The notes under the pieces were generated by a model, which ran no database searches, was not told the origin of the DNA, and worked only from the letters and a program-made list of their open reading frames with translations. A stretch of 20,682 nt of DNA from Ramlibacter sp. (lineage in GTDB: Bacteria; Pseudomonadota; Gammaproteobacteria; Burkholderiales; Burkholderiaceae_C), in the NCBI GenBank assembly GCA_021156245.1, contig JAJNBO010000002.1, positions 1 to 20,682 on the forward strand. The letters are read 5' to 3'. The position numbers and the translations under genes were made by a program. Below, piece by piece: positions 1 to 19,127 of this stretch. Each line of letters begins with the position of its first letter. Position 1 is the stretch's first letter.

Positions 1-1
1 C

Positions 2-625
2 AAGTCAGAGCTCGGACGCTGGCTGGCGCAGGCCGGCCGGCACGCGAACGCCCGCGAGGTGCGCCGCGCCATGGAGATCTGCGTCGACAACGCGAACCGC
101 TCCATCTTCAACGCCGCCAATTCCAACCCGCAGTACAGCGGCATGGGCACCACGCTGGTGGTGGGCGTGTTCCAGGACGGCCGCCTGATGCTGGGGCACA
201 TCGGGGACTCCCGCTGCTACCGGCTGCGGGGCGCCACCCTGGACCAGATCACCAAGGACCACTCGCTGCTGCAGGAGCAGATGGACGCCGGGTTGATCAC
301 GCCGGAACAGGCGGCCACCTCCACCAACAAGAACCTGGTGACCCGCGCCCTGGGGGTCGAAGACGCCGTGCTGCTGGAAGTCAACGAGCACAAGGTCGAA
401 CCCGGCGATCTTTATCTGATGTGTTCCGACGGACTGTCGGATATGCTGGACGACGAGGCCATCGCCCGCATCATGGCGAGCGAGGTTCCGCTGGAACAAA
501 AGTCGGTGCAGCTGGTGGACGCTGCGAACGCGAACGGCGGACGGGACAACATTTCGGTGCTGCTGGCGCATGCCAGCAGCGGCTCGAGGAAACGGGGACT
601 GATCTCGCGCTGGCTCGGACAATGA
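2..625 (+). CDS. PP2C-family Ser/Thr protein phosphatase (5' truncated)
   Basis: The reading frame is open from the left edge, so the true start lies outside the window; the GTG at 59 and ATG at 71 are internal. Visible PP2C motifs in order are GMGTT (nt about 143-157), GHIGDSR (about 196-216), the KDHS region (about 254-265), CSDGLSD (about 422-442) and GGRDN (about 536-550). The Asp residues of SDG and RDN are expected metal ligands; the first metal-binding motif near the N terminus is cut off. The family (Stp1/PrpC type) removes phosphate from Ser/Thr residues of cytoplasmic proteins and usually opposes a Hanks-type kinase. No kinase is visible here, but one may lie upstream. The FHA gene begins 44 bp downstream, which fits a phospho-Ser/Thr signalling operon. 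Family call is firm; the substrate is unknown. Confidence 0.93.
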   Translation, partial: KSELGRWLAQAGRHANAREVRRAMEICVDNANRSIFNAANSNPQYSGMGTTLVVGVFQDGRLMLGHIGDSRCYRLRGATLDQITKDHSLLQEQMDAGLITPEQAATSTNKNLVTRALGVEDAVLLEVNEHKVEPGDLYLMCSDGLSDMLDDEAIARIMASEVPLEQKSVQLVDAANANGGRDNISVLLAHASSGSRKRGLISRWLGQ

Positions 626-658
626 AGCGCGCGTGATTGCAGATTTGCATTGAGGAAC

Positions 659-663
659 AGGAG
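659..663 (+). promoter_or_regulatory. Ribosome binding site deciding the FHA start
   Basis: AGGAG lies 6 nt before the ATG at 670. It favours this start over the in-frame TTG at 637, which has no Shine-Dalgarno sequence and would add 11 residues unlike an FHA N terminus. Confidence 0.65.
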
Positions 664-669
664 TCGACC

Positions 670-1371
670 ATGCCGAAGATGATCGTGTCGATCGACGGTG
701 TCGTCATCAAGGAAGTGCAGTTGACCAAGGACCGGACCACGCTGGGCCGCCGTCCCTACAACGACATCGTGATCGACAACCTGGCGGTGTCGGGCGAGCA
801 CGCCGTGCTGCAATTGACCGGGAACGAGGTGTACCTGGAGGACCTGAATTCCACCAACGGCACCTACGTCAACGGCAAGGCCGTGAAGAAACAGTTGTTG
901 CAAAACAACGATACGGTCGAAATCGGGAAGTACAAGATCAAGTTCATCAACGAGGCGCCGGGCGCCACGTTCGAGAAGACCATGATCATGAAGTCCGGCA
1001 TGGTTCCGCCGATGCCGGCCAAGCCCGCGGCCGCTCCCGCCGGCGCGGCGACGGCCACCATGCCCTCGGCGGCGACCGCTTCCGGCGCCCCCGAGGCTGC
1101 CGCCGGATTGAATGCGAGCATCAAGGTGCTGTCCGGCGCCGCCGCCGGCCGCGAGGTCCCGCTGGTGAAGGTGGTCACCACCATCGGCAAGCCCGGCGTC
1201 GCGGTGGCCGCGATCACCAAGCGTTCCCACGGCTTCGTGGTGGCGCACGTCGAAGGCTCCGCCAAGCCCACCCTGAACGGGTCGGCCATCGGGCCCGAGC
1301 CGGTGACCCTGAAGAACGGCGACATGCTGGAACTCGCCGGCACCCAGATGCAGTTCCTCCAGGTGGGCTGA
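670..1371 (+). CDS. FHA-domain protein with a second, degenerate FHA-like half
   Basis: This is a 233-residue protein. The N-terminal FHA domain (about residues 4-95) shows the canonical phosphothreonine-binding elements: G26-R27, S41-x2-H44 and the S-T-N63-G64 loop. It should bind phosphothreonine peptides in the cytoplasm. A low-complexity Ala/Pro linker (about 112-147) joins it to a C-terminal part (about 148-233). That part has an FHA-like strand pattern (TIGKPG, TLNG, LKNGDMLEL) but has lost the GR and SxxH residues, so it probably does not bind phosphopeptides in the usual way. The gene sits between a PP2C phosphatase and an adenylate cyclase. I infer an adaptor that reads the phosphorylation state set by the phosphatase and an unseen kinase, perhaps passing it to the cyclase or the secretion ATPase. 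The partner protein is unknown. Confidence 0.9.
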   Translation: MPKMIVSIDGVVIKEVQLTKDRTTLGRRPYNDIVIDNLAVSGEHAVLQLTGNEVYLEDLNSTNGTYVNGKAVKKQLLQNNDTVEIGKYKIKFINEAPGATFEKTMIMKSGMVPPMPAKPAAAPAGAATATMPSAATASGAPEAAAGLNASIKVLSGAAAGREVPLVKVVTTIGKPGVAVAAITKRSHGFVVAHVEGSAKPTLNGSAIGPEPVTLKNGDMLELAGTQMQFLQVG

Positions 1372-1390
1372 CGCCCGCCGCGCCCGCTCC

Positions 1391-3640
1391 ATGGGCCTGC
1401 TCGCGCGGCACTGGTCGCGCATAGCGATCACGCTGGTTCCCCTGGTGCTCGCCCTGATGCATGCCATCGGGGTGCTGCACATCGGCGTGCTGCAGCGCCT
1501 CGACGACATCATCTACGACGCCCGCCTGCGCGCCACCATGCCGCGCACGCTGGACGAGCGCGTCGTCATCATCGACATCGACGAGAAGAGCCTGGCCGAA
1601 GTCGGGCGCTGGCCCTGGAGCCGCAACCGCCTGGCCGAGATGGTCGACGAGCTGTTCGACCGCCAGAAGATCGAGCTGCTCGGTTTCGACGTGGTGTTCG
1701 CGGAAGCGGACGAGAGCTCGGGCCTGAAGCGCCTGCGCCAGCTCGCGCAGGGCGAGCTGAAGGACCAGGCGGGTTTCGCCGAGCGCGTGGCGCAGCTGCA
1801 GGGGTCGCTGGACTACGACGCCGCCTTCGCGCGGTCGCTGAAGAACCGCCCCATCGTCCTGGGCTACTACTTCACCAGCGACCGCGAAGGCCGCACCTCC
1901 GGCGTGCTGCCCCAGCCCGTGATGGCCCAAGAGGCGCTGCGCGGCCGTCCCATCAAGTTCACCAGCTGGAACGGCTTCGGCTCGAACATCGAGCAGCTCG
2001 CGCGCGCGGCCCCGGTGGCCGGCTTCTTCAACCCGATGGTCGACGGCGACGGCGTGGTCCGGGCCGTGCCGCTGCTGGCGGAACACAAGGGCAGCTACTA
2101 CGAGTCGCTCGCGCTTTCCATGTTCCGCATGCTGGTGGGCTCGCCTGCCGTGGAGCCGGGCTTTCCCACCGAATCCTTCCTGCCCCGCCACTACCAGGGC
2201 CTGGACCACATCCGCCTGAAGCTCGGCGAGCGCTCGCGTGCGATCCCGGTGGCCGAAGGCGTGATCACGCTGGTGCCGTTCCGCGGGGCTGGCGGGCCCA
2301 GCGGCGGCTCGTACACGTACGTGTCGGCGGCGGACGTGATCGGCAAGAAGCTGCCCGCCGAAAGCCTGAAGGGCAAGATCGTCCTGGTCGGAACCACGGC
2401 CCCTGGCCTGCAGGACCTGCGCGTCACGCCCGTTGGCGAGACGTACGCGGGCGTCGAGACGCACGCCAACCTGCTCTCCGGACTCCTGGACAACAAGATT
2501 CCGGTGAAGCCGGACTACGCCCTCGGCTACGACCTGGTGATCCTCGTCGTCACCGGCCTGTTGCTGGCCTTCGCGCTGCCGCTGCTGTCTGCCACGCGCG
2601 CCGTGCTCCTGAGCGTGCTGGTCGCCGCGGCCATCTTCGCGCTGAACTTCTACCTGTACATGGCGCACATGCTGGCGCTTCCGCTGGCGGCGGCGCTCGC
2701 GATGGCCGGCACCGCTTTCGCGCTGAACATGAGTTACGGCTACTTCGTCGAAAGCCGCAGCAAGCGGGAGCTGGCCAACCTGTTCGGAACCTACGTGCCG
2801 CCGGAGCTGGTGGACGAGATGGTGAAGGACCCCGACAGCTACAGCATGAAGGCGACGAACAAGGAGCTGACGGTGATGTTCTGCGACATGCGGGGCTTCA
2901 CCAAGATGTCCGAGCGCATGGAGCCGACGCAGCTGCAGGAGCTGCTCAACGCCGTCTTCAGCCGCCTCACGGACATCATCCGCGCCAACCGCGGCACCAT
3001 CGACAAGTACATGGGCGACTGCGTCATGGCGTTCTGGGGCGCGCCCGTCGACACGCCGAACCACGCGGAGCTGGCCGTGAAGTCCGCCATCGAGATGTCG
3101 CTGGCCGTGCGGCAGATCAACGCGGAGCACCGCGCCAGGGACATGCTGGAGATCGGCGTGGGCGTGGGGCTGAACACCGGCACCATGTGCGTGGGCGACA
3201 TGGGCTCGGACATCCGCCGCAGCTACACGGTCATCGGCGACTCGGTGAACCTGGGGTCCCGGCTCGAGGGGCTGTCGAAAGCCTACGGAGTGGACATCGT
3301 CGTGAGCGAGAGCACCCGCAAGCTGGCGCCGGAGTTCGCCTGGCAGGAACTGGATAGGGTGCGAGTGAAGGGCAAGGAGCAGGCGGTCGGCATCTTCTAT
3401 CCCGTGGCCCCGGTCGCAGGCCTGGACAAGAAGGTGGCGGACGAACTGCGCATCTGGGGCGCCTTCCTCAAGGCGTACCGCGCGCAGGACTGGGACCAGT
3501 GCGACCTGCAGATGCTGAACCTGCAGCGCCTGGGTGCGCAAAAATACCTTTACGAGCTGTACTCCGAACGTGTAGCCTCGATGAGGTTGCTGCCTTTCGA
3601 CCCGAGCTGGGACGGCGCAACCAACTTCGAGACTAAGTGA
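1391..3640 (+). CDS. CHASE2-domain membrane adenylate cyclase (class III)
   Basis: This 749-residue protein has an N-terminal membrane anchor (about 9-28), an extracytoplasmic CHASE2 sensor (about 30-370), three predicted membrane segments (about 377-450) and a cytoplasmic class III cyclase domain (about 485-670). A conserved helical tail of about 80 residues follows. Catalytic residues are complete: metal-binding D499 (in CDMRGFT) and D543 (in KYMGD), adenine-selecting K539 and T613, and transition-state N620 and R624. The Lys/Thr pair indicates ATP rather than GTP as substrate and fits the class IIIb subgroup. It should make cAMP in response to a periplasmic signal sensed by CHASE2; the ligand is unknown. 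The ATG at 1391 lies 19 bp after the FHA stop. No clear Shine-Dalgarno is seen, but later starts would remove the anchor. The next gene looks like a cAMP phosphodiesterase. Confidence 0.93.
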   Translation: MGLLARHWSRIAITLVPLVLALMHAIGVLHIGVLQRLDDIIYDARLRATMPRTLDERVVIIDIDEKSLAEVGRWPWSRNRLAEMVDELFDRQKIELLGFDVVFAEADESSGLKRLRQLAQGELKDQAGFAERVAQLQGSLDYDAAFARSLKNRPIVLGYYFTSDREGRTSGVLPQPVMAQEALRGRPIKFTSWNGFGSNIEQLARAAPVAGFFNPMVDGDGVVRAVPLLAEHKGSYYESLALSMFRMLVGSPAVEPGFPTESFLPRHYQGLDHIRLKLGERSRAIPVAEGVITLVPFRGAGGPSGGSYTYVSAADVIGKKLPAESLKGKIVLVGTTAPGLQDLRVTPVGETYAGVETHANLLSGLLDNKIPVKPDYALGYDLVILVVTGLLLAFALPLLSATRAVLLSVLVAAAIFALNFYLYMAHMLALPLAAALAMAGTAFALNMSYGYFVESRSKRELANLFGTYVPPELVDEMVKDPDSYSMKATNKELTVMFCDMRGFTKMSERMEPTQLQELLNAVFSRLTDIIRANRGTIDKYMGDCVMAFWGAPVDTPNHAELAVKSAIEMSLAVRQINAEHRARDMLEIGVGVGLNTGTMCVGDMGSDIRRSYTVIGDSVNLGSRLEGLSKAYGVDIVVSESTRKLAPEFAWQELDRVRVKGKEQAVGIFYPVAPVAGLDKKVADELRIWGAFLKAYRAQDWDQCDLQMLNLQRLGAQKYLYELYSERVASMRLLPFDPSWDGATNFETK

Positions 3641-3650
3641 AGAGGCGGCA

Positions 3651-4442
3651 ATGAGGGTGCGGGTGCTGGGTTGTTCCGGCGCGATCGCGAAGGACTGCAG
3701 GACCACCTCCTTCCTGATCGACGGCGACGTCCTCGTCGACGCCGGCACGGGCGTGGGCGACCTGAGCCTGCAGGAAATGCGCGGCATCCGCCACGTCCTG
3801 CTCACGCACTCCCACCTCGATCACGTGGCCGCCCTGCCGCTGATGGTGGACGCGGTCGCCTCGCACATCACCGAGCCCATTCGCGTCTGCGCGCTGCCCG
3901 GCACCATTGCCGCACTGAAGGCGCACATCTTCAACAACGTGATCTGGCCAGACTTCAGCCGCATCCCGTCGCCGCAGGCGCCCTTCGTCAGCTTCCACGA
4001 GATCCAGGTCGGCCAGACGCTGGAGCTCAATGGCAAGTACATCGAGGTGCTGCCCGCCGTCCACACCGTGCCCGCATGCGGCTATGCGGTGGCGTCGGGG
4101 CAGGGCTGCTGGGTCTTCACGGGCGACACCGAGCGCAACCCCGCGTTCTGGCGCCGCCTGAACCAGATGGACGTGGCGGCCCTCGTCATCGAGACGGCCT
4201 TCAGCAACCGCGAGCAGGACCTGGCCAGGCGCAGCCTGCACCTGTCGCCGCTTGCGCTGGCCGAGGAGCTGGACTGCATCGACAAGGGCAAGCAGTTCCC
4301 CATTTTCATCACCCACACCAAGCCGGCGGAGACCGAGCTGATCATGACGGAGATCCAGCGCTTCGATCAGACGCAGCCCTTCGGACCGAACGTCACGCAT
4401 GACATCCGCTGGTTGCGCGCGGGCCAGGAGTTCGAGTTATGA
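3651..4442 (+). CDS. Metallo-beta-lactamase-fold cyclic-nucleotide phosphodiesterase (class II type)
   Basis: This 263-residue cytoplasmic protein has no signal peptide. The metal-site residues of the fold are visible: H53-x-H55-x-D57-H58 (in THSHLDH), H138, D159 (in TGDTE) and H222 (in THTKP). The stretch [14 protein letters not shown] (here [10 protein letters not shown], about residues 99-108), the TVPA segment after H138 and the final THTKP resemble bacterial class II 3',5'-cyclic-nucleotide phosphodiesterases rather than beta-lactamases or RNase Z. It would hydrolyse cAMP (or cGMP) to the 5'-nucleotide. AGAGG lies 5 nt before the ATG. The gene starts 10 bp after the adenylate cyclase, so synthesis and breakdown appear co-expressed. 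Its end overlaps the ATPase start by 4 bp (ATGA). The fold is firm; the substrate is inferred from family resemblance and context. Confidence 0.85.
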
Positions 4443-6844
4443 GCGCCGTATTGAAGTCGGCCCGCGACAGCGAGCAGGAGTTTCTGAGTTCCCAGCAGTT
4501 GCCGCCCGAAAAGCGCGGCATCTCCTTCGAAGCGCTGTTCTTCCGGCAGCTGCAGGCGGTCACGACCCGCATCCACGCCACCGAGAACATCGACGAGATC
4601 ATGCTCGAGGCGTCGCAGGACATCTGCAAGCTGTTCAACGCCGACCGCCTCACGCTGTACGCGGTGAACGAGGACCGCAGCGCGATCATCTCGAAGGTGA
4701 AGACGGGCCTGAACACCAGCCGCGACCTGAAGCTGCCGATCAGCCCGCAGAGCATCGCCGGCTACGTGGCGATGTCGCGCGAACTGGTGAACATCTCGGA
4801 CGTCTACGACGACGAGGCGCTCAAGCGCATCCACCCCAGCCTCACGTTCCTGAAGGAAGTGGACAAGCGCTCCGGCTATCGCACCAAGCAGATGCTGGTG
4901 CTGCCCATCCTCGATGGCGACGTGCTGCACGGGGTGCTGCAGGTCATCAACAACAAGAGCGACCAGCCGTTCGGCGAGCTCGAGATGGAAGGCGCTGGGC
5001 AGCTTTGCAAGACGCTCGCCCACGCCATCCGCCAGCGCATGCAGCGCGCCGAGGATGGCGCGCGCCGCAAGGCGACCAAGTACGACGGCCTCATCTCGGT
5101 CGGCGTAATGACGCAGGACGAACTGCAGAAGGCCGTGCAGAAGGCGCGCGAGCGCTCTCTGCCGGTCGAACAGGTCCTGATGTCCGACTTCTCGATCCGG
5201 CCGGCACAGATCGGGCCGTCGCTGTCCAAGTTCTTCGGCGTGCCGTACGAGCCGTTCAACCCGACGCGCATCCGTGTCGATGCGCTGCAGGGCGCGTTGA
5301 AGCGCGAGTTCGTCAACGAGCAGGGCTGGATCCCCCTCGAAGAAGGCCCCGAGGGCCTGGTGGTGATGTGCACGGACCCCGAGGCCGTCCGCAATTCGCG
5401 CATCGTGCCGCAGATCTTCCCGCGGGCGAGCAAGTTCTCGTGGCGCGTGTCGACGCAGACCGAGTTCGAGGAGACGGTCGCGCAGCTGTGGGGCGGCGAT
5501 GCCGGCGACTCCGTCGAGGACATGCTGGCCGACCTGAGCGGCCCGCTGGACGACGACGGCGGCGAAGACTCGCTGGAGTCCGCGGCCGCCGACAACGAGC
5601 TGGTGAAGTTCGTCAACAAGATCATCGTCGACGCGTACAACCAGAAGGCGTCGGACATCCACATCGAGCCGCTGCCCGGCAAGCTCAAGACGGGCATCCG
5701 CTTCCGCATCGACGGCACGCTGGTGCCCTACGTCGAAGTGCCGGCGCACTTCCGCCAGGCCATGGTGACGCGCCTGAAGATCATGTGCGACCTCGACATC
5801 TCCGAGCGCCGCAAGCCGCAGGACGGCAAGATCAAGTTCAAGAAGTACGGGCCGCTGGACATCGAGCTGCGCGTGGCCACCATCCCGTCGGCGGGCGCGG
5901 TCGAAGACGTCGTGATGCGTATCCTCGCCGCCGGCGAGCCGATCCCGATGGAAAAGCTCGGGCTCACCAAGCACAACCGCGAGAACCTCGAGAAGACCGT
6001 GAGCAAGCCCTATGGCCTGTTCTACGTGTGCGGTCCCACCGGCTCGGGCAAGACGACCACGCTGCACTCCATCCTGAAGTTCCTCAACACGCCGGAGACC
6101 AAGATCTGGACGGCGGAGGACCCCGTGGAAATCACCCAGCGCGGACTGCGCCAGGTGCAGGTGAACAAGAAGGCCGGCATCGACTTCGCGCTGGTGATGC
6201 GCGCCTTCCTGCGCGCCGACCCGGACATCATCATGGTGGGCGAGTCACGCGACAAGGAAACCGTGTCCATGGGCGTGGAAGCATCGCTCACCGGCCACCT
6301 GGTGTTCTCCACGCTGCACACCAACTCGGCGCCGGAGTCGATCACGCGCCTGCTGGACATGGGCATGGATCCGTTCAACTTCGCCGACGCGCTGCTCGGC
6401 ATCCTGGCCCAGCGCCTGGCCAAGCGCCTGTGCAGCTGCAAGGAAGCCTACGTGCCGTCGCACCAGGAATTGCGCAGCTTCATCGACGAATACGCGATCG
6501 ACCTGAAGCAGACCGAGGCGTGGGTGGCGGACCCCGGTGGCGAGGCCCAGAAGCTGTACGAGAGCTGGATCGAGAACTACGGCGAAGACGGGCAGCTGAA
6601 GCTGTATCGTGCGGTCGGCTGCGACAAGTGCAACAAGACCGGCTACAAGGGCCGCGTCGGCCTGCACGAACTGCTGGTCGCCGACGACCCGATCAAGCGC
6701 CTGATCCAGGAGCGCGCCCGGGTGGCCACGCTGTTCGTCTCGGCGGTGGCCAGCGGCATGCGCACCCTGAAGATGGACGGCATGGAGAAGATCATGATGG
6801 GCCAGACCGACCTGAAGCAGGTTCGGTCAGTGTGTATCCGTTAG
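4439..6844 (+). CDS. GspE/PilB-type secretion/pilus ATPase with N-terminal GAF domain
   Basis: This 801-residue protein is longer than ordinary GspE or PilB (about 500-570) because a GAF domain (about 35-205) precedes a MshEN/T2SSE_N-like segment (about 215-370) and the ATPase (about 395-795). ATPase motifs are intact: Walker A GPTGSGKT with K538, Asp box (WTAEDPVE), Walker B starting at D594 with E602, and the His box ([11 protein letters not shown]). The zinc-finger position is unusual: C665-x-C667 followed by C728-x2-C731, where the family normally has two CxxC pairs. It should be a cytoplasmic hexameric motor driving type IV pilus assembly or type II secretion. The GAF domain ends with an NK-x4-F-x3-E element (N172, K173, F178, E182) resembling the NKFDE motif of cyclic-nucleotide-binding GAFs. 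No platform (PilC/GspF) or peptidase gene adjoins; pilA lies 146 bp downstream under its own promoter. Confidence 0.93.
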
Positions 6845-6854
6845 CGACAGGATT

Positions 6855-6882
6855 TGTCAGAATGCTCCGACGTTCATGTCAG
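6855..6882 (+). promoter_or_regulatory. Candidate activator (PilR-like) binding sites upstream of pilA
   Basis: Two copies of TGTCAG (6855-6860 and 6877-6882) are spaced 22 bp apart, about two helical turns, and lie roughly 80-105 bp upstream of the predicted pilA start. PilR sites described at Pseudomonas aeruginosa pilA contain a TGTC core at similar distances, so these could be enhancer sites for a PilR-type activator. The short motif makes this tentative. Confidence 0.4.
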
Positions 6883-6933
6883 CTTTGGCGCCGTAGCTGC
6901 TCAGAAAGCGTGCATTTCTTCACGAATCGACGC

Positions 6934-6948
6934 TGGCACGACCCTTGC
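6934..6948 (+). promoter_or_regulatory. Sigma-54 (-24/-12) promoter of pilA
   Basis: TGGCACG, four bases, then TTGC matches the sigma-54 consensus, with the GG (6935-6936) and GC (6947-6948) elements 12 bp apart as required. The predicted start is near 6960, giving a leader of about 30 nt. Sigma-54 control with PilS/PilR is established for pilA in several proteobacteria. It would let pilin be expressed separately from the upstream operon. Confidence 0.88.
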
Positions 6949-6980
6949 GCTAGTTCCTCCGCTTCTTCCCATCAACAACC

Positions 6981-6985
6981 GGAGG
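6981..6985 (+). promoter_or_regulatory. Strong ribosome binding site of pilA
   Basis: GGAGG lies 5 nt before the ATG at 6991. It is among the strongest Shine-Dalgarno sequences in the window, fits a highly expressed pilin, and rules out upstream in-frame starts. Confidence 0.75.
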
Positions 6986-6990
6986 TTTTC

Positions 6991-7491
6991 ATGAAGCGTC
7001 AACTGCAAAAGGGTTTCACCCTGATCGAATTGATGATCGTCGTCGCGATCATCGGTATTCTGGCCGCCGTGGCCCTGCCCGCTTACCAGGACTACACCAA
7101 GCGTGCCAAGATGTCCGAAGTGATCCTGGCCGCTTCCAGCTGCCGCACCTCGATCACGGAAGTGATCCAGTCGTCTTCGGGCACGGCCAACAACCAGCTG
7201 CCGGCCAACGGCGCTTGGGGCTGCGAGCAGACCCAGCCGGGTGGTTCTTCCCAGTACGTGGCGCGCGTCGACACCATCGACAGCCCGCACCGCGGCGTCA
7301 TCCGCGTGACCAGCCAGAACATTCCCAACATGGAAGACGGCGCTCCCGGTGGCATCGTGACGCTGATCCCGTGGGCGAACGTCGACGGCACCGGCCAGCC
7401 GACGCCTTCCTCCACCGTCAAGAAGTGGACCTGCGGCGGCACCGGCACCACCGTTGCCCTGAAGTTCCTGCCCGGCTCTTGCCGCGGCTAA
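6991..7491 (+). CDS. pilA: Type IV major pilin (PilA-like)
   Basis: This 166-residue prepilin begins with a short positively charged leader (residues 1-8). The prepilin peptidase site KG8-F9TLIE follows, with the essential mature Glu5 at E13 and then a hydrophobic helix (about 9-35). Cleavage would leave 158 residues starting with a methylated Phe. Four cysteines are present (C51, C78, C148, C164); C148 and C164 probably close the C-terminal D-loop, and C51-C78 may form a second disulfide. It is the subunit of a type IV pilus used for adhesion, twitching or DNA uptake. It is monocistronic-looking: sigma-54 promoter upstream, intrinsic terminator downstream. The nearby ATPase could be its assembly motor, but a platform protein is not in the window. 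A minor or secreted pseudopilin role is less likely given the strong promoter, ribosome binding site and terminator. Confidence 0.95.
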
Positions 7492-7543
7492 GCGGACAGT
7501 GCGTGGCTCCCCTGGATTGCGGGGGGCCTGCCTGAACCCGCGG

Positions 7544-7576
7544 ACGAGCGGCCCCTGGGCCGCTCGTTTGCTTTTT
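7544..7576 (+). terminator. Rho-independent terminator after pilA
   Basis: A 10-bp GC-rich stem (7544-7553 pairing with 7558-7567) has a 4-base loop and is followed by a T-rich tract (TTTGCTTTTT). It lies 52 bp after the pilA stop and only 16 bp before the glycosyltransferase start at 7593. Confidence 0.88.
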
Positions 7577-7592
7577 CCCGTTTGCATTCCTG

Positions 7593-8810
7593 ATGACTCC
7601 CATGGCCGCCGTGCTCCTCGCCTCAGACCTGCCCACCGACGCTGACGCCGCGCTGGAACTGACGGTCCTGATGCCCTGCCTGAACGAGGCACGGACGGTC
7701 GCCACCTGCGTCGCCGCTGCCCGGCGTTTCCTCCAGGCCTCCGGCGTCCGCGGCGAAGTGCTGGTCGCCGACAACGGATCCACCGACGATTCCCGGGCGC
7801 TGGCCCGTGCTGCCGGAGCCCGCGTCATCTCCGTTCCGCGTCGGGGCTATGGCGCGGCTCTCCACGCAGGCATCGCGTCCGCGCGCGGGCGCTTCGTGGT
7901 CATGGGCGACGCGGACGACAGCTACGATTTCTCCTCGCTGCAGTCCTTCCTGGACGAACTGCGCGGCGGCGCGGATCTCGTGGTGGGCAACCGCTTCCGG
8001 GGCGGCATCGCACCCGGCGCCATGCCTCCGTTGCACCGCTATCTGGGCAATCCCGTCCTCAGCTTCGTTGGACGCCTCTTCTTCCGCACCGGCATCCGTG
8101 ATTTCCATTGCGGCCTGCGCGGCTTCTCCCGCGACGCGATGCACCGGCTCGGCCTGGTGTCGCCCGGCATGGAATTCGCCAGCGAGATGGTGGCGAAGGC
8201 GGCGCTCGCCGGGCTGCGCATCGAGGAAGTCCCGACCACGCTGCGGCCGGACGGCCGCGGCAGGCCGCCGCACTTGCGCACCTGGCGCGACGGCTGGCGG
8301 CACTTGCGCTTCCTCCTGTTGTTCTGTCCTCGCTGGCTGTTTCTCTATCCCGGCCTCGCCCTCATCGTGTCGGGGCTCGCCGGGTTCGCCGCGAGTGCGG
8401 GCGCCATCGGCTTGTTGCAGGTAGGCATCCATTCGCTTCTCTACATGGCGGCTGCCACGGTGCTCGGTGCACAGTTGGTCCAGTTGGCGCTGCTCACCAA
8501 GTGGATGGGCATCATGTCGGGCGTGGTGCCGCCCCAGCGCTGGCTCGAGCGCCTGGATCCGTACCTGAAGCTGGAGAACGGCCTGGTCGCCGGCGTGCTG
8601 CTGGTGGGCGTGGGGCTGACGTGGTCCGCCTGGCTGACGCTGGACTGGGGCCGCATGGGTTTCGGTGCGCTCGACCCGTCGCAGACGATGCGCATCGCCA
8701 TCCCGGCGGTGACGCTCATGATCCTCGGCGCGCAGGTAGCGGCAGGGTCGCTGTTCGCCGGCGCCCTGAACTACAGCTGGGCGTCGTCAGAACGGATTCC
8801 GCCGGCGTGA
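7593..8810 (+). CDS. GT2 family glycosyltransferase with C-terminal membrane segments (polyprenyl-phosphate sugar transferase type)
   Basis: This 405-residue protein has a GT-A catalytic domain (about 20-235). Its motifs are PCLNEA, VADNGSTDDS, the metal-binding GD106-A-D108-D109 and FHCGLRGF. Several hydrophobic helices follow (about 245-400). This layout is typical of DPM1/GtrB-like enzymes that move a sugar from a nucleotide donor to undecaprenyl phosphate at the inner membrane face. The donor sugar cannot be read from sequence. Starts at 7593 and 7602 are both possible; neither has a clear Shine-Dalgarno sequence. The gene is the first of the glycan cluster, 16 bp after the pilA terminator, so its promoter must lie inside or upstream of the terminator, or transcription depends on read-through. 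Its stop overlaps the next start by 4 bp (GTGA). Confidence 0.88.
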   Translation: MTPMAAVLLASDLPTDADAALELTVLMPCLNEARTVATCVAAARRFLQASGVRGEVLVADNGSTDDSRALARAAGARVISVPRRGYGAALHAGIASARGRFVVMGDADDSYDFSSLQSFLDELRGGADLVVGNRFRGGIAPGAMPPLHRYLGNPVLSFVGRLFFRTGIRDFHCGLRGFSRDAMHRLGLVSPGMEFASEMVAKAALAGLRIEEVPTTLRPDGRGRPPHLRTWRDGWRHLRFLLLFCPRWLFLYPGLALIVSGLAGFAASAGAIGLLQVGIHSLLYMAAATVLGAQLVQLALLTKWMGIMSGVVPPQRWLERLDPYLKLENGLVAGVLLVGVGLTWSAWLTLDWGRMGFGALDPSQTMRIAIPAVTLMILGAQVAAGSLFAGALNYSWASSERIPPA

Positions 8811-9652
8811 ACACGGCAGGCGCGACGCCGCTGGAGCGACGCCTCCCCCCCGCGGTGCTGCGGTGGGAGGGAGCGCTCGTGTGCCTCGTCGCCTGGGGGC
8901 TGTTGCTCCTGATCCCGTTGTCCACGGGGGAACTGGGGCTCGCGTGGGACACGCTCAATCACCACATCTATCTGGGGTGGACGGCGGAGCAGCACCGCTT
9001 CGACCGGGACTTCCTCGGCGCGGGGTACCAGTCCTTCCAGTCGCCCTATGTGAACTGGCCGATCTACCGGATGGCGGTCGACGGCTGGTCGGGCCGCTCC
9101 GCGGGCCTGGTGCTCGCTTCGCTGCAGGCGACCGCGGCGTGGCCGGTCTGGATGCTCGCCCGTGCGTGCCTGCCCGGTCCGACGGTCTACGACTTCGCGA
9201 TGCGCGTGCTGGCGGTGGCGCTCGCATTCCTGTCCGGCCTGGTGCTGTCCGCTTTCGGCGCGAGCCTCAACGACCTCCTGGCAGCGACGCCCATGGTGTG
9301 GGCCGTCGCCTTCGCCATGGAGCCCATCGCGCGCGGCGATAGCTGGTCCGGCGCTTCGGCGCGGCGATGCGTGCTGCTCTCGGGCATGAGCGCCGGCCTT
9401 GCGGTGGCCCTGAAGCTGAGCAACGGCCCGTTTGCCATCCTGCTGCCCCTGCTGTGGCTGCAAAGCGCCCCGCACTGGCGCGGCCGGATCGTGGCCAGCG
9501 TGCTGGGCGGCCTGGCCACGGTCGGGGCTTTCCTGCTCGCGTACGGCCACTGGGGATGGATTCTCTGGCGGCACTACGGCAATCCCGTCTACCCCTTCGA
9601 CCACCCCTGGTTCGCTTTGCTTCGCACCTGGATCATGGGCTGGGCTGGCTGA
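8807..9652 (+). CDS. Polytopic membrane protein, N-terminal part of a frame-disrupted gene
   Basis: The GTG at 8807 overlaps the upstream TGA. The 281-residue product is strongly hydrophobic, with multiple membrane helices. An early segment (WDTLNHHIYLGW, about residues 46-57) and a later one (about 210-225, LKLSNGPFAILLPLLWL) resemble large uncharacterised membrane proteins of betaproteobacterial polysaccharide loci, possibly GT-C-like or polymerase-like. Reading stops at TGA 9650-9652, just after a segment ending NPVYPFDHPWFALLR. The sequence that should follow ([13 protein letters not shown] and so on) continues in the next frame from about 9648. One extra base or two missing bases, probably within the GGGCTGGGCTGGCT repeat at 9636-9649, would explain it. 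Joined, the protein would be about 687 residues. A sequencing or assembly error is possible. Confidence 0.72.
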   Translation: MNTAGATPLERRLPPAVLRWEGALVCLVAWGLLLLIPLSTGELGLAWDTLNHHIYLGWTAEQHRFDRDFLGAGYQSFQSPYVNWPIYRMAVDGWSGRSAGLVLASLQATAAWPVWMLARACLPGPTVYDFAMRVLAVALAFLSGLVLSAFGASLNDLLAATPMVWAVAFAMEPIARGDSWSGASARRCVLLSGMSAGLAVALKLSNGPFAILLPLLWLQSAPHWRGRIVASVLGGLATVGAFLLAYGHWGWILWRHYGNPVYPFDHPWFALLRTWIMGWAG

Positions 9653-9653
9653 C

Positions 9654-10868
9654 GTGCGATTCCAACCCGACACCTGGCTGGAGGCGGCATTGCGGCCGCT
9701 CGCGATGGCGGCGGCGGACGCCCACGTCTACGTCGAGATCATGGCGCCGGACTTCCGCTTCGTCTTCGCGCTCGCGTTGGCGCTGGGCGTGCTGGGCGCC
9801 CTGCTTTTCCGCCGCGTGCCGCGCGACGCCGCCCGCGGGTTGGAAGGCCCGCGCGTCCGGGTGGTGCTGGTCCTGCTGGCGGTCCTGGCGCTGGCCTTCG
9901 TGCCGTGGCTCGCCGTGACCGGCAACGGCCGCTACTTCATGGCGGGACTGCTGCTGGCCGGGCCCGTGTGCGTCGGGCTCGCCTGCCTGCTGCCCGTGAC
10001 GAAGGCCATGCGACTGGCGATCGTTGTCGGCATGGTCGCATTGCAGGCCTTCGCCGTGCAGCAGAGCGCGCCACTGCGCGCGTGGGGCCTCGCTGCCTGG
10101 ACCGAGCCGCCCTACTTCCATGTGGACCTCGGGGCCGAAGCGAAGGCGGACCCGGCGACCTACGTGACCCTGTCCGCCATCACCTACTCGCTGATCGCCC
10201 CCAGCCTGCATCCGCGCTCCCGCTGGATCAGCCTGCACAACGCGGGTGCGCCGGACAGCGCAGCGCACGATGCCCGTCGCACGGCGGCGTTCCTGGACCA
10301 GGCGGAAAAGGGGAGGATCGTGCTGCTGGTGCCGGTGGTGGCGGGCATGCTCACCCCGGATCGCCTGCCCAACGACCAGGTGAGCCAGGCGATCGCAGGC
10401 CAGCTCGCGCGTTACCGGCTCGCGTTTTCGCAGCCGCAGTCGTGCCGCTTTCTGGCCTCCCGCACCCTGGCGTCGATGGGCCTGGGCGAGAAGTCCGAGG
10501 AGCAGCGCGCCAGCTCGGGGTTCTGGCTCTGCGAACTGGTGCGCCTGCCGCGGGGGACGCGAGTCGACGACTCGATCGGGACCCGTCACGACGACGTGTT
10601 CAAGGCGCTGGAGTCCCAGTGCGCGCGCTTCTTCCCGGCAGGGGGCGACGGCGCCAGCGTCGCGATCCGATCTGGCGAGGTGCGCAGCTACCATCAGGCG
10701 GAAATGAAGGCCTACGTCTACGACAACGGCGAGGTGTACTACAAGTACAACCGCGCCCTGAACGCCGTGCGCATCGGACTTGCCCCCGACGTCGTGGCCG
10801 GCCGCTCGCGCATCGACTGCGCGAACATCCCGGGCCGCACGGGGCTGCCCTGGAACCGCGGTTTCTGA
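9654..10868 (+). CDS. C-terminal part of the same disrupted membrane protein
   Basis: This frame (up to 404 codons from a GTG at 9654; an ATG occurs at 9705) directly continues the preceding protein after the frame change. It has further membrane helices (about nt 9760-9830, 9860-9915, 9930-10080). A long soluble region follows (about 10100-10868), probably periplasmic, rich in Arg, Tyr and Asp with a few Cys. No strong ribosome binding site precedes either start, so it is more likely the continuation of one gene than an independent gene. If the disruption is real, this part may be untranslated or produced only by reinitiation right after TGA 9650. Function is unknown; by location it may be a lipid-linked sugar transferase, polymerase or other membrane glycan factor. 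Confidence 0.65.
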
Positions 10869-10882
10869 GGCAAGGCCACGGC

Positions 10883-13108
10883 ATGCAGGACACCACCACG
10901 CCCGCTTCCTCCACGGCCACTGGGCCCGCCGGCGGCGCGCGCGCCTGGCTGCGAAAGGCGGCGCACGCCTGCTACGTCTTCACTCCGCTGCCGCTGCCGT
11001 GGAAGAACCGGGTGGCGCATGCCTTGTACGGGCTCACCGGCTGGATCTTCCGGGGCGACCGCAACTACGAGTTGTGGAGCCGGGCGAACACGGGCCGTCA
11101 CATCGCGGTCGAAGTGGCGCCGGTGCAGGATCACGAGATCGCGTCCCTGCTGCAGGAGATCCGATTTCCAGTCGTCGCGCAACCCGCGGTGTCGATCATC
11201 ATCCCCGCGTACGGGAACATCCACCACACCCTCGCTTGCCTGCGTTCCATCCACCGCTGCATGCCGGCCGTCCCGATCGAGGTGATCGTGGCGGAAGACG
11301 CTTCCGGCGATCCGCAGATCCTTCGCTTGCGCGAGATCGAGGGCCTGCGCTTCCTGCTGCATGACGAGAATCTCGGCTTCCTGCGCTCCTGCAATGCCGC
11401 AGCCCGCCAGGCGCGGGGCCAGTACCTGCACTTCCTGAACAACGACACCGAAGTCACCGCCGGGTGGCTGGACGCGATGCTGCGGCTGTTCGCCGACGAA
11501 GCGGGCTGCGGGATGGTCGGCTCCATGCTCGTGTTTCCCGACGGCCGCTTGCAGGAGGCCGGCGGCATCGTCTGGCGCGACGGCGGCTCCGACAACTTCG
11601 GCCGGCTCGCGTCGCCTTGGCGCAGCGCGTACAACTATGTCAGGGACGTGGACTACTGCTCCGGCGCTTCGCTGCTGATCGGGGCCGATCTCTTTGCCTC
11701 GCTCCAGGGCTTCGACGAGGCGTTCGCCCCGGCGTACTGGGAAGACACGGACCTGGCGTTCCGTGTCCGAGCCGCGGGCAAGCGCGTGCTGTACCAGCCG
11801 CAATCGCTGGTGATCCACCATGAAGGCCTGTCCAACGGCAAGGAGGTGACCTCCGGCGTCAAGGCCTATCACGTGCGCAACCGCGCCAAGTTCCGCGAGC
11901 GCTGGCAGCACGTGCTGGCCAGCGAACACCCCGAGCCCTCCTGGGACCCGGAGCGCGCCTACGACCGGGGCGCGCAGCGCCGGATGTTGCTCGTGGTCGA
12001 CCATCACGTGCCGCAGCCCGACCAGGACGCGGGCTCGCGCTCGATGTGGTGCATCCTGCGCGCGCTGAAGGCGATGGGACTGGTGGTGAAGTTCTGGCCC
12101 GAGGACCAGGCGCACGACCCGGTCTACACCGACTGGCTGCAGCAGGCCGGCATCGAAGTGTTGCTCGGAGAGGCCGGCAGCAAGCGCGACTTCGCACGCT
12201 GGCTCGCGGCGAATCGTGGCCAGCTGGACTACGTCCTCCTGAGCAGGCCCGCGGTGGCGACGGCCTTCCTCCCCGAACTGCGCCGCAGCAGCCAGGCGCG
12301 CGTCCTGTTCTACGGCCATGACCTGCACTACGCGAGGCTGGAGACAGAGCACGCACACACCGGCTCCCTCGTCGCGCGCCGCGAAGCAGAGTCGATGAAG
12401 AAGCTGGAGTCGTCGCTCTGGCGGCGGGTCGATGCCGTGTACTACCCATCGTCGGCCGAGACGGAAGTGGTGCGCGCCGAAGTCCCAGGCCTGCCTACCA
12501 TCACGATGCCGCTGTACTACTTCGACGCGCCGGCAGCCCCACCGGAGCCGGGCGGCCGACATGGCATCCTGTTCGTCGCCGCCTTCGACCGGCCGCCGAA
12601 CGTGGATGCTGCCAAGTGGCTCGTCCGGTCGATCATGCCCCTGGTGCGTGCTGCATCGCCGGAGCCCGTGCGGCTGTGGCTGGTCGGCTCCAATCCCAAC
12701 GACGAGGTGCGACGGCTGGCGGGGCCCGACGTCGAAGTCACCGGCTTCGTGACGGACGAACAACTCCAGGCGTTCTATCGCCAGGCACGCGTGGCGATCG
12801 TTCCGCTGCGGATGGGTGCCGGCATGAAGGGAAAGGTCATCGAGGCCTTGCACGAAGGCTTGCCGCTGGTGACCACGCCGGTCGGTGCGCAGGGCCTGGA
12901 AGGGCTGGAGGCAGTTGCGTGCGTGTCGGTCGATGAGGGTGCGTTGGCGCATGCGCTGGTCGCACTGCTTCGGGACGACACGGCCTGGCGCCGGGCCTCC
13001 AGCGCGCAGCAGGCGTACATGCAGGGGCGCTTCTCGCTGGCCGCCATGCAGCAGGCGCTGCGGCTCGGCATGGGCCACGCGCAGGCTGCCGTGGCGACGC
13101 CGTCATGA
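10883..13108 (+). CDS. Bifunctional GT2-GT4 fusion glycosyltransferase
   Basis: This 741-residue protein contains two glycosyltransferases. The N-terminal GT2 (GT-A fold, about 95-350) shows [10 protein letters not shown]138-D139, the NND188TE metal motif and the W-E287-D288-T-D catalytic-base motif typical of rhamnosyl and related transferases. The C-terminal GT4-like domain (GT-B fold, about 368-730) begins MLLVVDHH, has GFVTDEQL and ends with the donor-binding segment around E654 (KVIEALHEG). A single chain would add two consecutive sugars to a growing lipid-linked glycan at the cytoplasmic face. The ATG at 10883 lies 14 bp after the preceding stop with only a weak ribosome binding site. 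Its end overlaps the next gene by 4 bp (ATGA), suggesting translational coupling. Specificities are unknown. Confidence 0.9.
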
Positions 13109-14292
13109 AAGTGGTGCTGGTCTCCAGCTTCCCGGCATTCCCGACGAGCGCCGGCAATCGCAGCCGCATCCGACAGCTGGCGGCCGCGGTCCGCGAGCTG
13201 GGGCACGAGCTCACTTTCGTCTACCTGGAGTCGCCCTGGGAGGCCTGCGACGATGCGGCGCATGAAGATTCCTTCGGGACGTTCGTGCGCATTCCCAGGA
13301 AGCACTGGCGACTCAAGTGGGCGCGCGACGTGCTCGTCGGAGGCGTCAAGCGGGTGCTGCGCCTGGCCGGAGTCGACGCGGCGCACTACTCCCGCCTGGA
13401 CCGCTTTCGCGACCGGGGCTTCCTGGCCGCTCTCCGGGCGCTGCAGTTGAGGCCTGACGCGGTGATCGTGGAATACGTGCTCGACTCGTGGGCGTTCGCT
13501 GCGTTCCCGGCTTCGGCGCGCCGCGTGCTCGACACCCATGATGCCTTCGGCGACCGCCACAGGACGTATGTGGAGCGCGGGATCCGTGACTACTGGATCT
13601 CCCTCAGGCCCGGCAGCGAGAATGCCGGCCTGCGACGGGCGCATGTCGTGCTGGCCATCCAGGAGGAGGAAGCGCGGCGCTTCCGCGAGCAACTCGCGGG
13701 CGACGGCGCAGCGGACAACCCGGAAGTGGCTGTCGTCGGTCACCTGCTGGCGTTGAGCGAGGCGCGACCGAACCACTCGATCGACCACGTGGCGGTTTTC
13801 ATCGCCTCCGACAATCCCGCGAATCGGCATGCTGCGGACGGTTTGCTGCGCGACATCCTGCCGCGAGTGCTGCGGGAGATGCCGGCTTTCGAGCTGAGGC
13901 TCGCCGGGTCGATCTGCCGGGCCGTGCCCGATACTCCGAACGTGACGAAGCTGGGCTGGGTGGAGGATCTCGCTGCGGTGTTCGCGCGTGCGCCGCTGTC
14001 GGTCAATCCGATGCAGGCCGGAACCGGCATCAACATCAAGCTGCTGGAATCGATGGCCGCTGGCGTGCCGACCGTCTCGACGGCCACGGGCGCCCGCGGG
14101 TTGCCCGAATCCGCCCTCGCGGGGGTGTTCGTGGTGCCAGACCAGGATCCGCAGGCTTTCGCGCAGGCCGTGATCCGCTTCGCCAGCGACGCTGCTCTGC
14201 GCCGGCAAACCGGGCAGGCAGCTCGGGAACAGGCCGCGCGACTGAACGCGCGGCAACTCGCGCAGCTGGATCGCGCCCTGGGCGGCAACTGA
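13105..14292 (+). CDS. GT4-family glycosyltransferase
   Basis: This 395-residue GT-B-fold enzyme starts [17 protein letters not shown], the Rossmann start with a Gly-containing acceptor loop. A C-terminal donor-binding segment (about 305-335) has TGINIKLLE315SMAAGVP. It is soluble or membrane-associated and would transfer a sugar from a nucleotide donor to a lipid-linked intermediate. It overlaps the upstream GT2-GT4 gene by 4 bp, and the flippase starts 4 bp after its stop, so the three are probably made together. Donor and acceptor cannot be assigned. Confidence 0.88.
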
Positions 14293-14296
14293 GAAC

Positions 14297-16006
14297 ATGT
14301 TCGGCAAATACCTTCAGCTCTGGTCGCACCTCGCTCCGCTGCACCGCGCGGGCGCCGTCGCACTCCTCGTCGGCAACCTGGCCGGATCGGTGCTCGAGGT
14401 GATGGGGCTGGCGCTGTTCGGCGCCGTCCTGCTGGGGCTGACCGGTGGCGAATCCCCCATGGCCGGCCTGTGGGCCGGCGGCCTGCCCGCACTGGTCGAC
14501 CGGGCCGACCTGTCTTCCCTGACCATCGCCTGCGGGGTCGTCTACGTTGCCAAGAACGCCTTGCTGCTGTTCCTCGCGTGGCTCGAGGCCCGGCTTTCCT
14601 TCGGGGTGCAGTCGCACCTGAGCGAGCACGCCCTGGCCGCGATGCTGCGACAGGACTACGAGGACGTCAGCCGCGCCAACCAGAGCGCCAGGATCAACCT
14701 GCTGACGGGTGGCATGTACGCGCTGGCGTTCAACGTGCTGCTGCCAGGGCTCACGATGCTCTCCGAAGTCATCCTGATGCTGGCGCTGGTGCTGTTCCTG
14801 GTGCTCACCCAGGCGGCGTTCGTCAGCGGCATGCTGGCGACGCTGTGCGCCGTCGCGGCGGCGCTGGTGCTGGTCAGCCGGCGGGTCGTGCTGCGGCTCG
14901 GGCAGTCGCGCCACCGCTCGGAGGATGACAAGCTGCAGTTGCTGAGCGGCATCTTCGGTCACCTGCGCGAGATGTACATCTATTCGGCGGGGCCGCGCGC
15001 GGTGGCCCACCTCCATGGCCTGCAGGCGCCGCTGGCGGCGACGTACCGCGGCTTCCACATGATGCAGACCGGGCCCCGCTTCGTGCTGGAAGTGGCGCTG
15101 GTGGGCGTGCTGCTCGCGACGGTCTACTGGCAATCGAGCGGCGGGCTCGCCCCCTCGCTGGTGGTCAGCATCGGCGTGTTCGGCGTGGCAGGCTTCAGGT
15201 TGCTGCTGGGCATCAACCGGGTGGTGGGTTGCGTGCAGGCGATGCGCTTCGCGGGGCCGACCATCGAGCGGATTGCCGCGGCCCTGACCGTTCCGGCGGC
15301 GCCTGCGGTCTCGGCACAGCCGGGCGGCGCGGTGCGCGGGAGCAGCTTGCGGCTCGTGGACGTCCACTACGGGTACGCCGCGGACAAGCCGGTGCTCCAA
15401 GGCGTGGACTTCGAGCTGCCGCGGCGCGCGCTGGTGGCGATCCGTGGCCGCTCCGGCGCCGGAAAGAGCACGCTGCTGGAAATCATGGCGGGCCTGCGCA
15501 CCCCCACCGCGGGCTCGGTGGAGCTGGATGGCCGCAGGATCGCGCACAAGCAGGAGCTGACGGACCGCATCGCCTACGCGGGACAGCAGCCCGCGGTGTT
15601 CCCGGACTCCATTCGCGCGAACGTCGCGTTCGGCCGGCCACCGCAGTCGATCCGCGACGATGACGTCTGGCGCGCGCTGGCACGCGCGCACCTCGACGAC
15701 GTCGTGCGCGGCCTGCCAGGAGGCCTCGACTTCCGCCTCGGATTCGCGCAGGCCCTGTCGGGCGGGCAGATCCAGCGCCTCGCGCTGGCGCGGGCACTCT
15801 ACGTCGACCGCGACTACCTGTTGCTGGACGAGCCGACCGCGGCGCTGGACGCCGAGACGGAATTGCAACTGCTGGCGACCCTGAAGGAACTGGCGGCCAC
15901 CACCGGCATCGTGGTGGTGTCCCACCGGCTCGCGCCCATCGAGGCGGCCGACGCGGTGCTGGAACTGTCTGGCGGGCGGCTGGTGCGGCCGTCGTCCTGC
16001 AACTAA
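14297..16006 (+). CDS. ABC transporter half-molecule, lipid-linked glycan flippase type (PglK/MsbA-like)
   Basis: This 569-residue half-transporter has an N-terminal membrane domain with about six helices (about 20-330) and a C-terminal nucleotide-binding domain (about 350-565). The ATPase site is intact: Walker A GRSGAGKST with K390, signature LSGGQ from 487, Walker B LLLD511-E512 and the H-loop H543. The fused half-transporter layout, a homodimer in the family, matches PglK- and MsbA-like exporters that flip polyprenyl-linked glycans or lipids across the inner membrane. Placed among glycosyltransferases, it probably exports the finished oligosaccharide-lipid. No O-antigen ligase, oligosaccharyltransferase or Wzx/Wzy gene is visible in the window. 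The ATG at 14297 follows the previous stop by 4 bp. Confidence 0.9.
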   Translation: MFGKYLQLWSHLAPLHRAGAVALLVGNLAGSVLEVMGLALFGAVLLGLTGGESPMAGLWAGGLPALVDRADLSSLTIACGVVYVAKNALLLFLAWLEARLSFGVQSHLSEHALAAMLRQDYEDVSRANQSARINLLTGGMYALAFNVLLPGLTMLSEVILMLALVLFLVLTQAAFVSGMLATLCAVAAALVLVSRRVVLRLGQSRHRSEDDKLQLLSGIFGHLREMYIYSAGPRAVAHLHGLQAPLAATYRGFHMMQTGPRFVLEVALVGVLLATVYWQSSGGLAPSLVVSIGVFGVAGFRLLLGINRVVGCVQAMRFAGPTIERIAAALTVPAAPAVSAQPGGAVRGSSLRLVDVHYGYAADKPVLQGVDFELPRRALVAIRGRSGAGKSTLLEIMAGLRTPTAGSVELDGRRIAHKQELTDRIAYAGQQPAVFPDSIRANVAFGRPPQSIRDDDVWRALARAHLDDVVRGLPGGLDFRLGFAQALSGGQIQRLALARALYVDRDYLLLDEPTAALDAETELQLLATLKELAATTGIVVVSHRLAPIEAADAVLELSGGRLVRPSSCN

Positions 16007-16030
16007 GATGGCCCGGCTGCCACCCAACCC

Positions 16031-19123: not shown

Positions 19124-19127
19124 GGCA

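Follow-up and report, generated by a model that had tools for sequence, protein, structure and literature searches.

A conserved Burkholderiales gene cluster that may place a type IV pilus motor under cyclic AMP control

Does a gene cluster that couples the predicted synthesis of cyclic AMP (cAMP) to its predicted breakdown also direct this messenger onto a neighbouring pilus motor? The question is raised by contig JAJNBO010000002.1 (G000:C97 in our set) of the Ramlibacter-like assembly GCA_021156245.1, which consists of 556 contigs and is 69% complete. This whole contig, 20,682 nt long and referred to below as the window, carries near its start the genes of a PP2C-type phosphatase, an FHA-domain protein, a CHASE2-adenylate cyclase, a protein of the metallo-beta-lactamase (MBL) fold and a T2SSE motor ATPase with a GAF domain (Table 1). 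An earlier note on this DNA, made from the sequence alone, had suggested that these genes form a local cAMP circuit, possibly gated by phosphorylation, that directly tunes a pilus or secretion motor. We regard it as modestly probable that the locus is a self-contained cAMP module for an accessory type IV pilus motor, equipped with its own cyclase, phosphodiesterase and phospho-switch.

Open reading frames (ORFs) and Pfam matches, all of which exceed the curated cut-offs, place the FHA, cyclase, MBL and motor genes at the positions given in the earlier note, with the PP2C and FHA genes in front. The genes from PP2C through FHA, cyclase and MBL to the motor are spaced by 44, 19, 10 and -4 nt, the last two being junctions that had been described, and the stop codon of the MBL gene shares the letters ATGA with the start of the motor gene. 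The PP2C gene, which lies outside the interval 670..6844 covered by the note, is judged to be cut by the contig start because its frame is open from base 2; the incomplete gene scores 193.7 bits against the NCBIfam Stp1/IreP PP2C model, under the cut-off of 230.

The cluster is not a chance arrangement, because the cyclase, MBL and motor genes occur in the same order in 19 of the 30 sampled Burkholderiales families. When the motor was used as query, 127 of 300 Burkholderiales genomes matched at E<=1e-140, GAF-less relatives included, and from these we assembled a set of 51 loci consisting of the window, 42 loci with one to three full-length matches per family (L006-L047) and eight loci from the same genus. 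The neighbourhoods were scanned with the window proteins and three proteins of L007, and some of the loci are shortened by contig ends, so that all counts of absence are upper bounds. The cyclase, the MBL gene and the GAF-motor are found together in cis in 34 of the 51 loci. Upstream of the motor and on the same strand there is an MBL gene in 46 loci, a cyclase in 35, FHA and PP2C genes in 41 each, and a Ser/Thr kinase gene in 29; on the 3' side there is a pilin gene in 31 and an HD-GYP gene in 30, and in eight loci a CNB-rhodanese protein (CNB, cyclic-nucleotide-binding domain) is encoded between MBL and motor. Since its stop-to-stop frame overlaps the end of the motor gene, the window pilin does not enter the count of 31. 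The full layout derived from these counts is therefore CHASE2-kinase, PP2C, FHA, CHASE2-cyclase, class II phosphodiesterase, (CNB-rhodanese), GAF-motor, (HD-GYP, often with GAF) and pilin. The survey of the five-gene order that the note had proposed thus finds synteny well beyond close relatives, and a restriction of the order to the latter is ruled out by its spread over families.

A second set comprises 80 named loci, 78 of them with an unsplit GAF-motor ORF and 74 assessable. The cyclase and MBL genes are both present in 46 of the 74, both absent in 23 and represented by only one of the two in five; the genomes are related, and these counts are not independent events. Nine of the 23 loci without the pair are titled Rhodoferax and most others are metagenome-assembled genomes (MAGs), so the joint absence may reflect one or a few events. 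For the reverse check we hand-picked 18 loci whose fetched stretch has an MBL gene and lacks a GAF-motor: in 10 of them a cyclase gene immediately precedes the MBL gene, five have PP2C-FHA-MBL without cyclase and three have neither, and several of these motor-less loci keep a downstream pilin. The cyclase-MBL pair therefore also exists on its own. Two single loci deserve mention: in L006, which keeps PP2C, FHA, MBL and motor, a remnant of 60 residues is all that is left of the cyclase, and in a same-genus genome (G014:C1:3933493-3935897) the motor is split into two overlapping frames by a frameshift or an assembly error.

The cyclase scores as a class III adenylate cyclase (PF00211, cut-off 21.9 bits), and the statement that it has all catalytic residues holds for its relatives as well: none of D499, K539, D543, T613, N620 and R624 varies in the 93 ungapped rows of a 96-row alignment. 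We take D499 and D543 to be the metal-binding aspartates, K539 the adenine-binding lysine, N620 and R624 the transition-state Asn and Arg, and K539 with T613 the adenine-selecting K/T pair of class IIIb enzymes. Because K539 and T613 match this pair, cAMP is the likely product.

The MBL protein had been called a class II phosphodiesterase type, and the family score (PF02112, cut-off 23.7 bits), the metal motif, the profile match and the model structure all agree with this assignment. The HxHLDH motif is present in 115 of 119 MBL ORFs, HxHMDH in two, and neither was found in two; the metal ligands H53, H55, D57 and H58 are kept in 116/116 ungapped rows, and H138, D159 and H222 in 118/118. By sequence the best match is yeast PDE1, which also ranks first when the AlphaFold model is compared with VIA-align. 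Ordered by Foldseek E-value, the matches to the same model are led by 1zkp, with yeast PDE1 in fourth place, and yeast PDE1 has the highest query TM-score (0.84) among the best 50 Foldseek matches listed. Two narrower candidates were rejected on score: NCBIfam NF041851, a cyclic nucleotide-degrading phosphodiesterase that presumably represents the Rv1339 group (31.4 bits, equivalog cut-off 400), and RNase Z (TIGR02651; 47.5 bits, equivalog cut-off 292.95). It is conceivable that the MBL protein processes RNA or another nucleotide rather than cAMP, which would leave no make-and-break circuit; with PF02112 over its cut-off, HxHLDH and the HxFNxxxWPDF segment shared with yeast PDE1 conserved, yeast PDE1 leading by sequence and VIA-align, and cyclase and MBL genes frequently being neighbours that, in the named loci, mostly occur or are missing as a pair, we consider this highly improbable. 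Sequence, profile and model thus place the protein, as a prediction, with the class II cAMP phosphodiesterase PDE1 of yeast or close to it.

The central question is whether the motor GAF could read the messenger. A single-sequence search of the PDB names 1ykd, the cAMP-bound GAFs of Anabaena CyaB2, as the nearest relative (1.5e-26). A family profile built without the reference GAFs matches 43 PDB sequences, 1ykd at 6.7e-38; the top 20 rows consist of 19 from cyclases, cyclic-nucleotide phosphodiesterases or Lcd1, together with the GAF-HD-GYP protein 4mcw, and the 21st row is at 1.2e-8. The closest named relative of the window GAF is that of a Ramlibacter MAG (L106, 98%). Among 30 GAF loci of the window genome and three same-genus genomes, only the four GAF-motors match the profile at E<=1e-3, and no more than three of the remaining domains allowed a loose alignment; this comparison sets the motor GAF apart from the other GAFs of these genomes and is no measure of the frequency of R-x-T.

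According to the available excerpt of PMC4411481, the GAFb domain of CyaB2 contacts cAMP through R291, T293, D356/N359 and I308, which correspond to R70, T72, D142/S145 and V87 in the window GAF. R70, T72 and D142 are invariant in 36 cyclase-positive, 16 cyclase-negative and eight non-Burkholderiales rows (the 36 include L006 with its remnant, and of the 16, L074 is cut at a contig edge), and also in all four groups of the comparison of the 51-locus and named-locus sets. Position S145 is S or T, and V87 is V, I, L or F in Burkholderiales and F or Y in the eight others. Q168 is the residue found in CyaB2 and in PDE10A (cAMP), where PDE2A (cGMP) has E. The outer motif of the pocket is slightly looser in those of the 51 loci that have no cis cyclase-MBL pair, where R148 is kept in 14/16 and T149 in 13/16, versus 35/35 each in the loci with the pair. 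The AlphaFold2 (AF2) model is that of a good GAF, with a predicted local distance difference test (pLDDT) score of 87. A fold search with this model mixes PtsP, phosphodiesterase, Lcd1 and phytochrome GAFs and does not reproduce the sequence-based ranking; because cyclic-nucleotide and other GAFs are mixed, it does not name the ligand. The earlier suggestion of a fold that can bind cyclic nucleotides therefore gains sequence support, from the nearest solved relatives, mostly cAMP or cGMP GAFs, and from the invariant CyaB2 R, T and D, with cAMP as the predicted ligand; it is weakened by an incomplete NKFDE motif, in which N171 and F178 are invariant and the K, D and E positions vary. That motif marks cyclic-nucleotide GAFs without contacting the ligand, and single changes in it abolished cGMP binding in PDE2 GAFb (excerpt of PMC11977230). 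The complete motif is kept in most, not all, characterised cyclic-nucleotide-binding GAFs.

Besides the incomplete NKFDE motif, several observations weigh against a circuit closed at the locus. Among the named loci, the 23 that have neither the cyclase nor the MBL gene show no relaxation of the GAF pocket, and some Comamonadaceae without the two at the locus keep it. At most 16 of the 51 loci have no cis cyclase, so a strictly local circuit is not universal, and the interpretation in the earlier note is supported in part. The MBL protein was found in 0/11 genomes of named loci lacking both genes in cis, with L133 as positive control. Outside Burkholderiales the motor-cyclase-MBL linkage is weak (2/8 and 1/8). 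In 15 genomes of cis-cyclase-negative loci, that of L006 not among them, a full-length CHASE2-cyclase (39-47% identical) is present elsewhere in seven and some cyclase match at 1e-15 in 13, and PF00211 is matched in all six of these genomes tested, including two without a 1e-15 match (G257 weakly). Among the 11 genomes just mentioned, three have a full-length cyclase elsewhere and all seven tested match PF00211. The retention of the pocket without the cis pair is compatible with a supply of cAMP by another cyclase and also with a different ligand. Beside the weak linkage outside Burkholderiales we observed one non-Burkholderiales GAF-motor, L051, with a divergent MBL gene adjoining and a CHASE2-cyclase about 10 kb away, possibly an independent assembly of the same circuit.

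The pocket kept in those 23 loci and the incomplete NKFDE motif count in favour of the reading that the cyclase-phosphodiesterase pair is real and its cAMP acts through CRP-family regulators or the CNB-rhodanese protein, the motor GAF binding some other small ligand and the co-location reflecting co-expression. Such a division of labour draws further on the 8-22 cyclic-nucleotide-binding-domain matches in each of four genomes (window and three of the same genus) and on signalling genes that accompany pilins without a motor (for example L086, L087, L094 and L095). We nevertheless find it rather unlikely: the nearest solved relatives of the GAF are mostly cAMP or cGMP binders, its CyaB2-type contacts are invariant, and no CRP-type gene occurs among the families tracked in the loci, where not every gene was annotated. 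As an observation on the same subject, L007 (11118-12212) encodes such a CNB (PF00027)-rhodanese fusion between MBL and motor, a second predicted cyclic-nucleotide receptor of the cluster. The motif FGEEAL..RNA, which we take to be the phosphate-binding cassette of cyclic-nucleotide-binding domains, is present in 8/8 of these proteins.

A different emphasis would make the phospho-switch the core of the locus, with CHASE2-kinase, PP2C and FHA controlling the motor, the GAF serving mainly oligomerisation and the cyclase-MBL pair being an optional add-on. PP2C and FHA genes are indeed commoner in cis than the cyclase, and those named loci that have lost cyclase and MBL mostly retain PP2C-FHA-motor. 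The commonest partner of the motor in the 51-locus set is, however, the MBL gene, which pairs with the cyclase without PP2C or FHA in L089, L096 and L097, and there would be little reason for the ligand pocket to be invariant if the GAF had a structural role alone. We hold this arrangement to be distinctly unlikely.

The motor itself has intact catalytic residues. Its Pfam scores for T2SSE (378.5 bits) and GAF (43.9 bits) exceed the curated cut-offs, and conservation extends to Walker A, the catalytic Glu and the His box: in a 138-row alignment, K538 and E602 occur in 136 of 137 ungapped rows, and D561 and H627 in every one of 136. Assignment to a known equivalog was rejected for PilB (TIGR02538; 462.4 bits, cut-off 675.65), GspE (TIGR02533; 431.7, cut-off 630.25) and TfpB (NF053534; 387.9, cut-off 850). 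No T2SSF (pilC-type) gene was found among the window genes scanned, and in the same-genus relative G013 a separate PilB-like gene adjoins a T2SSF gene (L102) and a GspE-like gene adjoins a T2SSN gene (L103). In a tree from which L102 and L103 had been dropped on length, a single branch unites 51 Burkholderiales GAF-motors with L078, a GAF-less copy (support 92/97, not starred). L078, which is nested among the GAF-motors without a matched GAF, possibly lost the domain after duplication.

Behind the GAF the window motor has an MshEN domain that barely passes its threshold (23.9 bits, cut-off 23.1), compared with 65.7-76.0 in five GAF-less homologues of about 800 residues. The repeated R-L-G motif, presumably the MshEN motif for reception of cyclic di-GMP (c-di-GMP), is absent by eye from the window protein, where K-Y-D stands instead, and from L007 and L040; it is present or partial (RLG or KLG, then LGEIL) in the GAF-less L079, L063 and L049. 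Because the window MshEN is at threshold without R-L-G and the GAF-less homologues score high, the comparison suggests that one messenger input has been exchanged for another in this motor. L049, L063, L079, L080 and L082 are related T2SSE ATPases of about 800 residues with a well-scoring MshEN and an unassigned N-terminal part of about 200 residues, in some with a weak DUF4388 match. A wider claim would be that the GAF-motors are a new subfamily of extension motors, switched by cAMP through a CyaB2-type GAF that replaced a decayed MshEN, with cyclase, phosphodiesterase and Ser/Thr phospho-switch in the cluster, and thus a transcription-free local circuit in much of Burkholderiales; we advance it tentatively, its probability falling a little short of even.

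The module that we favour might operate as follows. A periplasmic cue sensed by the membrane-bound CHASE2-cyclase would raise cAMP near the membrane, and the adjacent class II phosphodiesterase would destroy it, keeping the pool small or brief. Binding of cAMP by the motor GAF would reshape the N-terminal ring of the PilB-like hexamer and alter its assembly or activity, so that extension of pili made from the neighbouring PilA-type pilin would be promoted or blocked; the motor would serve as an accessory ATPase for extension, in addition to canonical PilB and GspE. In a parallel branch, CHASE2-Ser/Thr kinase, PP2C and FHA may phosphorylate one or more of these parts. We infer cAMP as the ligand, its effect on the motor, membership in a pilus machine and the phospho-branch; for membership, the neighbourhood offers the pilins 3' of the motor in 31 of 51 loci.

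Two elements of this scheme were absent from the earlier note, namely the downstream pilin with a sigma54-type site and, in relatives, the CHASE2-Ser/Thr kinase upstream of the cluster, which in the window would fall beyond the contig edge. Such a twin CHASE2 kinase suggests that one class of cue feeds two outputs. Sigma54 controls pilA in Pseudomonas. Of 86 pilins that follow the motor, 46 have a -24/-12 site (in one of three pattern variants) in the 200 nt before the gene, versus 43 of 1720 random 200-nt stretches (2.5%) from the same loci; this site and its enrichment before pilins make it probable that the pilin forms a unit of its own, driven by sigma54, next to the signalling genes. Terminator-like hairpins such as the one behind the pilin are weak evidence by themselves, with three found in positions 1-8000 versus a mean of 4.4 in shuffles. 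In L007 (14788-16383) a GAF-HD-GYP protein (c-di-GMP phosphodiesterase type) directly follows the motor, as in many families. Its GAF has FDKKTGYRS, close to VDKRTGYRT in the motor GAF of the same locus, a resemblance that suggests cross-talk from cAMP to c-di-GMP. Past the pilin lies a surface-glycan or pilin-glycosylation cluster (positions 7593-20261 of the window), with genes for glycosyltransferases, an ABC transporter, a DegT aminotransferase and a NeuD-type acetyltransferase.

Table 1. Features at the start of the window, with supporting matches
Feature	Position	Strand	Details
PP2C-type Ser/Thr phosphatase	2..625	+	PF13672 34.3 bits on 59-625; cut by contig start
FHA-domain protein (phosphothreonine reader)	670..1371	+	PF00498 87.3 bits; ATG at 670, TGA ends 1371
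CHASE2-class III adenylate cyclase	1391..3640	+	CHASE2 ~1454-2560, cyclase ~2858-3385; PF05226 182 bits, PF00211 92.7 bits
MBL-fold protein, predicted class II 3',5'-cAMP phosphodiesterase	3651..4442	+	PF02112 (PDEase_II) 47.4 bits
GAF-MshEN-T2SSE motor ATPase	4439..6844	+	GAF ~4589-5029, degenerate MshEN ~5234-5488, T2SSE ~5588-6823
Sigma54-type (-24/-12) promoter-like site TGGCACGACCCTTGC	6934..6948	+	upstream of pilin; pattern match
Type IV pilin, PilA-like, 166 aa	6991..7491	+	PF00114 43.8 bits, PF07963 (N_methyl) 39.6 bits
Intrinsic-terminator-like hairpin 3' of pilin	7540..7571	+	14-pair stem, then T run

Control of pilus motors by second messengers is a known theme, and the new part would be a cAMP-binding GAF fused to such a motor. 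The messenger bound directly by extension motors, via MshEN, is c-di-GMP, and in MshE of V. cholerae, PilB of M. xanthus and PilB2 of C. perfringens a second messenger at the N-terminal part of the extension ATPase likewise provides the motor input (excerpts of PMC11656802). Unlike MshE-type motors, the window motor has a degenerate MshEN with a cyclic-nucleotide-type GAF in front, and its predicted messenger is cAMP. In Pseudomonas aeruginosa, the Pil-Chp/CyaB/Vfr system lets cAMP control type IV pili through transcription via Vfr (same excerpts), whereas the input predicted here would be post-translational and act directly on the motor. The contacts R291, T293 and D356 and the Q and N/F positions are common to CyaB2 and the window GAF; CyaB2 differs in having tandem GAFs that regulate a cyclase, as opposed to a single GAF fused to a motor ATPase in which the K and D/E of NKFDE are not conserved. 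Bacteria offer a precedent in Lcd1 of Leptospira (GAF-GGDEF; PDB 5w10), a GAF protein whose attached enzyme becomes more active on binding of cAMP (excerpt of PMC6416229), which makes cAMP-gated chemistry plausible; its output is c-di-GMP synthesis and that of the window protein is predicted to be a pilus motor. TfpB of Acinetobacter baylyi is likewise a PilB-like ATPase encoded away from pilC and beside a canonical PilB (excerpt of PMC8213720), its model covering 584 positions compared with the 801 residues of the window motor. The MBL protein shares with yeast PDE1 (4ojv) the fold, the HxHLDH metal motif and the HxFNxxxWPD segment, at 263 residues versus 369, and with the atypical class II enzyme Rv1339 the fold and the metal motif. 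The portion of the literature searched, outside which most subscription papers fall, yielded no description of a GAF-bearing pilus motor or of this cluster.

If the proposed module is correct, it would provide a fast and possibly spatially confined post-translational route from cAMP to pili, give CHASE2-cyclases and class II phosphodiesterases a role in Burkholderiales, and offer a ready-made system for the study of local cAMP pools in bacteria. Its occurrence in the named environmental relatives Ramlibacter, Caenimonas and Polaromonas sp. JS666 makes the idea of a cAMP-gated motor testable.

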